In this document: positions 14,914 to 40,654 of the stretch, piece after piece
Position numbering within the stretch: the stretch's first letter is position 1
Layout of the letters: each line of letters begins with the position of its first letter
DNA from: Streptomyces sp. XY006
GTDB lineage: Bacteria > Actinomycetota > Actinomycetes > Streptomycetales > Streptomycetaceae
Reading direction: 5' to 3'
Length of the DNA stretch: 64,000 nucleotides
Assembly: GCF_002237655.1 (NCBI RefSeq)
Contig: NZ_NOKT01000025.1
Location: 1 to 64,000, forward strand
The notes under the pieces: generated by a model
Seen by the model: the letters and a program-made list of their open reading frames with translations, nothing else
Databases searched by the model: none
Told to the model about the DNA's origin: nothing
Position numbers and translations under genes: made by a program

Positions 14914-15831
<918 letters not shown>

Positions 15832-15845
15832 CCAGCAGTTCACGA

Positions 15846-15872
15846 GGCCCGGCGCCGGGGCGGCGCCGGGCC
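15846..15872 (+). terminator. Hairpin after sprT
   Basis: GGCCCGGCGCC (15846-15856) pairs perfectly with GGCGCCGGGCC (15862-15872) around a 5-base loop, 15 bases after the sprT stop. No T-tract. Confidence 0.7.
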
Positions 15873-15980
15873 GTCGGTGTGTGTGGGAGGCGCCGGGGAG
15901 TCCGGTGTGCGAAGAGGGCTGGGGCGCGGCGTCCCGGCGCGGAGGTGGTGCGGGGCCGAGCGACGGATCGGTCGGGATAC

Positions 15981-16260
15981 GGCGTGGCCGGAAGGGGTCG
16001 GGCGACGGCATGGCCGGACCGCGGTGGGCGACGGCGTAGCCGGACCGTGGCGGGCGGCGTAGCCGGACCGTGGCGGGCGGCGGCGCGGCCGGACGACTGC
16101 ACGTGGCGGCGTAGCCGGACCACCGCGCGCGGCGGCGTAGCCGGACGACTGCGCGTGGCGGCATAGCCGGACCACCGCGCGTGGCGGCGTAGCCGGACCA
16201 CCGCGGCGGGCGACGGCGTGGCCGGACCGCCGGCGCCGACGGCGTGGCCGGACCGGCGCC
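15981..16260. repeat. Array of about eleven 26-bp tandem repeats
   Basis: The core GCCGGA begins at 15987, 16013, 16039, 16062, 16088, 16114, 16140, 16166, 16192, 16221 and 16247. Ten intervals are 26, 26, 23, 26, 26, 26, 26, 26, 29 and 26 bp. Units share GTAGCCGGACC (or GTGGCCGGACC) followed by a GC-rich variable part and GGCGGC. A 26-bp period is not a multiple of three, so this is not a protein repeat. It lies between the convergent 3' ends of sprT and the YdeI-type gene. Confidence 0.9.
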
Positions 16261-16305
16261 GGTGGCGGAGCTGCGGCGGGGTGTCGGCGACGTTGCGGAG
16301 GGGGC

Positions 16306-16887
16306 TCAGGGGGGCGGCTCGGCCCGGGACTCCAAGTCTGCCATGGCCGCCGCCACTCTGGCCTGCCGGAGGCTCGCCGTCCTGGCGCGGAGCACGCCGA
16401 GCATCGTCAGGTAGCGGTCCGTGCGGCCGAGCGCCTGGAAGGCCGCCGCGGCCCGGGGGTTGCGCTCCAGTGCCGCCGCCAGGTCGTCGGGGACCCCGGC
16501 CTCCTTCTGCGACGCGTACGCCGCGTCCCACCGTCCGTCCGCCCGCGCGGCCGCCACCTCCGCGAGCCCGCCCGGACGCATCCGGCCCTCGGCGGTCAGT
16601 TCGCCGACCCGGCGGACGTTGACCATGGACCAGAGGCTGCCGGGCCGCCGCGGGGTGATCCGCTGGAGGTAGCGCGAGGCGTCGAGTGCCTTGCGCTGCC
16701 CGGTGATCCAGCCGTGGCACAGCGCCACGTCGTTGACGTCGGCGGCGCTGACGGAGGGGATGCCCGATCCCTTCTTCGCGACCTCCACCCACAACCCGGG
16801 GTGCGGAGCCGGATGGGCGGTCAGCCAGGAGTCCAGCTCGGCCACGGTCGCGAAGGCGAGGGGGCCGGTGTCGTCGGAGGCGTTCAT
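16306..16887 (-). CDS. YdeI/OmpD-associated family protein
   Basis: A 193-residue protein of the YdeI/OmpD-associated (OmdA-like) family. The N-terminal half includes LWVEVAKKGSGIPSV, ALCHGWITGQRKALD and YLQRITPRRPGSLWS(M)VN, all hallmarks; the C-terminal part, VPDDLAAALERNPRAAAAFQAL, is the conserved helical OmdA domain. The function of the family is not settled; some members are linked to antimicrobial peptide tolerance. It is a single gene, convergent with sprT and separated from it by the 26-bp repeat array. Confidence 0.85.
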   Translation of the reverse strand: MNASDDTGPLAFATVAELDSWLTAHPAPHPGLWVEVAKKGSGIPSVSAADVNDVALCHGWITGQRKALDASRYLQRITPRRPGSLWSMVNVRRVGELTAEGRMRPGGLAEVAAARADGRWDAAYASQKEAGVPDDLAAALERNPRAAAAFQALGRTDRYLTMLGVLRARTASLRQARVAAAMADLESRAEPPP

Positions 16888-39151: not shown

Positions 39152-40654
39152 ATGTATGAAGGCGCCTCTGCGGTGGGGGACAATGCCCGGGTGACGCCGG
39201 AACACAGGGGTGACTACCAGGAGCTGGTCGACGAGATCTCGGAGCTGCTCGGCGCGCCCGCGACGCTGGAGAACCGCGATTTCGAGCTGATCGCCTTCGG
39301 GGCGTACGACAGCGAGGGCGACCTCGATCCGTCGGCCCTGGACCCGGTGCGCACCCGCTCGATCCTCACCCGCCGCTCCACCGCGGCGGTCCGGGCCTGG
39401 TTCGAGGGCTTCGGCATCACCCGCGCGACGGGCCCGGTGCGCATCCCGCCCACCCCGGAGGCCGGCGTCTACCGAGGCCGGATCTGTCTGCCCGTCCGCC
39501 ACCGGGGCGTGGTCCACGGCTACGTCTGGCTGCTGGACGACGATCCCGGCCCGAGCGAGCGGCAGCTGTCGGCCGCCATGGCGGTGACGGCCCGGATCGG
39601 TGCCCTGCTCGCCGACGAGGCCCAGCACGGCGCCGACCTCAGCCGCGAACTGCGCGCGGTCCTCACCGCGGAGCGGGACTGGCAGCGGGACATGGCCGTC
39701 GCCGAGCTGCGCACGGCTCTCGGTCCCCGGGCCGACGCCCCGCACACCGTCGTGTGCGTCGCGCCCTGGCCCTCGGCCGACCCCGACGACGCGCCGTCGG
39801 TCCGCACGATGCCGGGCGCGGCGGCGCTGTGCACGCTGCCGTGGGGCGCGACGGACCAGTGTGTGGCGGTCCTGGTCCGGCTGCGCTCGGCGGACGTCCT
39901 GACCCCGGCGACGACGGCGGCGAACCGCCTGCTGGAACGCGCCCGCGGCACGACCGCCCCGGGCACCCCCGGGCACCCCGCCGGCGGCGGCGCGGGGGGT
40001 GGGACGACGGGTTCCGGGGCGGCTTCCGGCGCACGCGGGGCGGGCGGGCCGGTCACCGGGCCAGGCACGCCGGTCGCCGGGGCAGGCACGCCGGTCACCG
40101 GGGCAGGCACGCCGGTCACCGGGGCAGGCGGGCCGGTCACCGGGGCAGGCAGGCCGGTCACCGGGGCAGGCAGGCCGGTCGCCGGGATGGGCAGGCCGGT
40201 CGCCGGGATGGGCGGAACCGTCGCCGGGGTCGCCACGGCCGGGGCCGGGCTCGCCGGGCTGGGGGCCGCCTGGCGGGAGGCGTCCGCGGCGGCCCGTGCC
40301 GCGCTCGCGGAACCCCGGCTGGGGCCGGTCGCCGAGTGGGCGGCGATCGGGCCGTTCCGGCTGCTCACCGCGCTGCCCGCGGAGGTGGCCCGCGACCCCG
40401 CCGTACAGACGCTTCTCGTCCCCGCCCACCGGGAACTGGCCCGTACCGCCGAGGTCTACCTCGACTGCGCCGGGCAGGCCGCCCGGGCCGCGGCCGAGCT
40501 GGGCATCCACCGCCAGACCCTCTACTACCGCCTGTCCCGCATCGAGAAGCTCACCGGGCTCGACCTGGACGACGGCGAGGACCGGCTGCTGCTGCACATG
40601 GCGCTGAAGGGAGCCCGGCTCTCCACCGGTGGGGCCACTGGGCCGTCCGGGTGA
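39152..40654 (+). CDS. PucR-type helix-turn-helix regulator of proline catabolism
   Basis: A 500-residue regulator. The N-terminal part ([28 protein letters not shown]...) is the ligand-sensing domain found in PucR-like proteins; the C-terminal [30 protein letters not shown] is the PucR helix-turn-helix. The long middle linker holds tandem heptapeptides (GTPVTGA type, 21-bp units around 40049-40216). Starts: ATG 39152 or GTG 39191 (VTPEHRGD); the latter is closer to a purine-rich site. It is divergent from the proline dehydrogenase-pruA operon, as mycobacterial PruC is next to its proline genes, so it probably activates the operon. Confidence 0.85.
40049..40216 (+). repeat. Eight 21-bp tandem repeats in the PucR-type gene
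   Basis: About eight copies of a 21-bp unit (CCGGTCACCGGGGCAGGCA-type) encode GTPVTGA-like heptapeptides in the linker between sensor and DNA-binding parts. The last copies diverge (GRPVAGM). The unit is a multiple of three. Confidence 0.85.

Follow-up and report, generated by a model that had tools for sequence, protein, structure and literature searches.

REP/BIME elements are dispersed families of intergenic sequences with a short dyad core, found at the 3' flanks of genes, and iteron and operator arrays carry a conserved core at regular spacing with variable spacer between the cores. Bacterial minisatellites and VNTR loci, for example those of the MIRU-VNTR type in mycobacteria, are built from head-to-tail non-coding copies. 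Prokaryotic satellites have been defined as units of 10-200 nt present in at least four copies, and S. coelicolor has 38 satellite arrays, or 4.2 per Mb (PMC6749651). The array described here lies in a stretch of 64,000 nucleotides from contig NZ_NOKT01000025.1 of Streptomyces sp. XY006 (hereafter the window) and fits this definition, with a unit of 26 bp and 10.9 tandem copies, and by comparison with shuffled sequence it exceeds what base composition gives by chance. Like the VNTR loci it consists of non-coding head-to-tail copies, but it is a single and strongly degenerate locus, with a pairwise difference of 24% among the copies. It shares with REP/BIME elements the intergenic position at gene 3' flanks and the short dyad core, whereas REPs are dispersed in many genomic copies and the XY006 unit is arrayed at one locus only. 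The conserved, regularly spaced core and variable spacer also recall iteron and operator arrays; however, neither a replication gene nor a regulator adjoins the array among the genes examined, the rest of the genome shows no enrichment of the core, and the array is not conserved in relatives. We consider it quite probable that we are dealing with a minisatellite, degenerate and specific to one lineage, which sits in a permissive gap between convergent genes and most likely has no dedicated function.

Table 1. Positions in the window of the array, its parts and the flanking features.
Feature	Position	Strand	Evidence or remark
S. griseus-type trypsin gene (sprT)	15061..15831	+	Pfam Trypsin PF00089, E=2.1e-51 on ORF 14929-15831; start codon position approximate; 3' end faces array
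Terminator-like 11-bp hairpin	15846..15872	+	Directly 3' of trypsin stop, upstream of and outside array
26-bp tandem array, 11 degenerate copies	15980..16265	.	Core positions, TRF, copy alignment, shuffles
GCCGGA core starts	15987, 16013, 16039, 16062, 16088, 16114, 16140, 16166, 16192, 16221, 16247		Cores span 15987-16252
52-bp higher-order block	16081..16184	.	Copies 5-6 (GACTGC/CACCGC spacers) and 7-8 repeat pairwise
OmdA/YdeI-type gene	16306..16887	-	Pfam OmdA PF13376, E=3.5e-13; 3' end faces array

The unit of the array is CGGC-NNN-GCCGGAC followed by a variable part of 12 bp. A recount of the eleven GCCGGA cores gave core-to-core steps of 26, 26, 23, 26, 26, 26, 26, 26, 29 and 26 bp, that is eight steps of 26 bp and one each of 23 and 29 bp, exactly as in the original prediction, and the independent call by TRF (15969-16253, period 26) is in agreement. 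The 23- and 29-bp steps are the loss and the gain of one triplet within the G/C-rich spacer. TRF found an even stronger period of 52 bp at 16006-16253 (score 257), and the pairwise repetition of copies 5-6 in copies 7-8 is close (copy 5 and copy 7 are 88% identical, copy 6 and copy 8 92%). Gain and loss of copies is thus seen both as duplication of a 52-bp block within the array and as presence or absence of the array between species. Order-2 Markov shuffles of the array region (n=5000) contained on average 1.3 cores and at most 6, compared to the 11 observed, and a 26-bp step occurred at most once per shuffled sequence, compared to 8 in the real array. The array is non-coding, and since 26 is not divisible by 3 it yields no simple protein repeat, as had been proposed. 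At another place in the window (40036-40228) a 21-bp unit is repeated 8 times in frame inside ORF 39152-40654 (+), encoding a 7-residue TGAGxPV repeat, which precedes a C-terminal helix-turn-helix-like segment. This segment presumably resembles those of PucR-type regulators.

The two genes on each side of the array converge (Table 1), which agrees with the gene pair named in the original prediction; sprT at this locus is the S. griseus trypsin gene and not the SprT metalloprotease. The hairpin behind the trypsin gene is present in 13 of 13 aligned sequences from the XY006 species and its relatives, with 98.6% of the pair cells standard and 7 of the 11 pairs invariant. One pair is altered on both sides, and covariation as such was not above that of shuffles in these 13 sequences.

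The unit is confined to a single locus in the genome of 8.25 Mb. Other matches to the array in this genome are weak and short (at most 77 bp), and the best secondary match (on contig C19) contains no array; the search for the unit elsewhere that had been proposed as a check therefore gave no dispersed copies and rules out a dispersed genomic repeat family. When 393 Streptomyces species genomes were scanned with up to 3 mismatches allowed, serial matches to the unit occurred only in the XY006 genome and the array was not found in the 392 other species sampled, and a plasmid collection gave no match. One of the Streptomyces genomes (G380) has a 26-bp array of six copies (L156:1648-1813), the reverse complement of which has 12 of 14 core bases in common with the XY006 core. 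Given the number of genomes and arrays scanned, this is most simply a coincidence, and we do not regard the G380 array as a homologue.

The orthologous gap between the trypsin and OmdA genes carries no array in 14 of 14 named relatives, whose trypsin is 95-99% identical to that of XY006. The gap measures 44-302 bp in these relatives (S. massasporeus 76 bp, S. iakyrus 110, S. paradoxus 110, S. lomondensis 83, S. viridochromogenes 58, S. coeruleorubidus 57, S. indiaensis 69, NRRL B-1140 58, S. tibetensis 56, S. afghaniensis 59, S. africanus 60, S. djakartensis 44, MAG RH52 101 and D2-8 302). A similarity of 25 bp at 16246-16270 to the nearest relative, MAG RH52, was considered as a single-copy seed of the unit and was not significant (P=0.285). 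Its complete absence from the relatives marks the array as lineage-specific and does not call its reality into question. In S. olindensis (L091) the gap is 293 bp long and holds at gap positions 57-289 about 12 copies of a unit of about 19/20 bp, without similarity to the 26-bp array, so the same spacer has gained two different arrays in two lineages. The gap of S. violaceus is interrupted by an assembly break; in strain NRRL B-2867 (L078, KL569253) the sequence CTGTCTCTTATACACATCT stands just ahead of the N run and resembles a Nextera sequencing adapter, which is probably assembly contamination. Of the roles first suggested for the array, that of a minisatellite is the one borne out by its local, lineage-specific and non-coding nature and its presence or absence between species.

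Arrays of this kind are not rare in gaps between genes. A survey with a simple GC3-based gene caller, counting arrays with a minimum of 80 bp and 3 copies, covered 1.26 of the 8.25 Mb of the XY006 genome (C11, C19, C21, C26, C44 and the window). Arrays were present in 12 of the 172 convergent gaps and 11 of the 351 tandem ones, and in none of the 170 divergent ones. When three further Streptomyces genomes were included, at 400 kb each, the pooled counts were 20 of 297, 16 of 728 and 3 of 303, respectively, and the excess in convergent gaps was significant against both tandem (Fisher P=0.001) and divergent gaps (P=0.0002). The three added genomes vary widely, from no arrays in 400 kb in G009 to 12 in G380, which indicates that the background rate of arrays differs between species. 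The units differ from one gap array to the next, their periods have no bias to multiples of 3, and Markov shuffles of the convergent gaps produced no arrays. Convergent gaps have a GC content of 0.77, compared to 0.71 in tandem and 0.68 in divergent gaps, and this higher GC may be part of the cause of the excess. The frequency in this survey, together with the satellites of S. coelicolor (PMC6749651), places the XY006 array in a common class. We found no report of a concentration of tandem arrays in convergent Streptomyces gaps in the open-access literature, the coverage of which was incomplete.

The best hint of a function comes from the arms CGGC and GCCG, which do not vary in any of the 11 copies, in contrast to the three bases that separate them. 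Eleven of the 26 unit columns are invariant, nearly all within CGGC-NNN-GCCGGA, which exceeds a uniform model (P=7e-5). In a neutral simulation that takes the duplications into account, neither the dispersion (P=0.10) nor the number of invariant columns (P=0.075) was significant; the run of six invariant columns was (P=0.006), being a feature picked after inspection of the data. Column conservation is uneven in other, unrelated arrays as well, and selection on the core was set aside, as the pattern is mostly explained by common ancestry of the copies. Four-fold sites differ by 11-31% between the XY006 species and its relatives, and in the nearest sampled relative, RH52, by 11% in the trypsin gene and 17% in OmdA, values that understate neutral change because of the codon-usage bias of Streptomyces at these sites. 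The difference between the copies is larger than the divergence from RH52, which argues that the array was not freshly made; it would be either older than the RH52 split and lost there, or changing faster than coding DNA.

The alternatives to a minisatellite without function give the array a task or another origin. The array could act as a transcription-collision barrier or bidirectional terminator that folds when transcribed, or stalls RNA polymerase, and thereby insulates the two convergent genes. Its place between convergent 3' ends, the roughly threefold higher frequency of arrays per convergent than per tandem gap and the strong folding of both strands in absolute terms are in line with such a role. 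The folding is, however, no better than that of dinucleotide shuffles on either strand (z -1.26 and -0.07), Rfam gave no matching family and a terminator scan found no terminator-like site, so that neither a better fold nor a known family marks it as structured RNA. The trypsin gene is also followed, ahead of the array, by a conserved hairpin of its own, the relatives manage without any array, and about 93% of convergent gaps contain none. The suggestion of a transcription-blocking structure is not supported by these results, and we consider it unlikely. The other functional role put forward, binding of a protein that recognises the putative dyad CGGC-NNN-GCCG and would serve in titration, the nucleoid or chromosome architecture, could account for the invariant arms with variable centre and for the spacing, which hardly departs from about 2.5 helical turns. 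It fares no better, since the core is not over-represented in the rest of the genome (20 occurrences beyond the array compared to 27 for a reversed-pattern control), the orthologous gaps of relatives lack the array, and the uneven conservation recurs in unrelated arrays and is only marginal under the duplication-aware null; we find this role highly improbable.

The long open frames that high-GC DNA leaves across the array on both strands would fit an array left behind by a repeat-containing gene or a satellite-carrying mobile element. These frames run antisense through the flanking genes, the period does not keep a reading frame, and the single locus without dispersed copies and without an Rfam match also speaks against such an origin, which is already largely refuted and extremely improbable. 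It is tempting to speculate that unrelated GC-rich arrays have arisen time and again in the convergent gaps of Streptomyces because they are of use there, for instance as transcript roadblocks, with the dyad core as the working element at this locus, but we regard this as very unlikely.

The array is most readily seen as ordinary repetitive spacer, since it is absent in close relatives, another repeat occupies the gap in one of them, and unrelated repeats occur in other convergent gaps of the genome. As a minisatellite it would have been founded by a local tandem duplication of GC-rich sequence in the convergent spacer, through replication slippage or unequal recombination, at a site where neither promoters nor coding sequence would be disturbed. 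Point mutation, slippage by 3 bp, which would account for the 23- and 29-bp steps, and the further duplication of a 52-bp block may then have diversified it, and a lack of selection would explain its persistence.

As a single locus the array has little importance, except as a possible marker for strain typing. The wider pattern is more useful: in XY006, unrelated non-coding minisatellites are concentrated in convergent gaps, and the divergent gaps sampled have none, which lets one ask whether convergent gaps are merely tolerant or whether the arrays serve convergent transcription.
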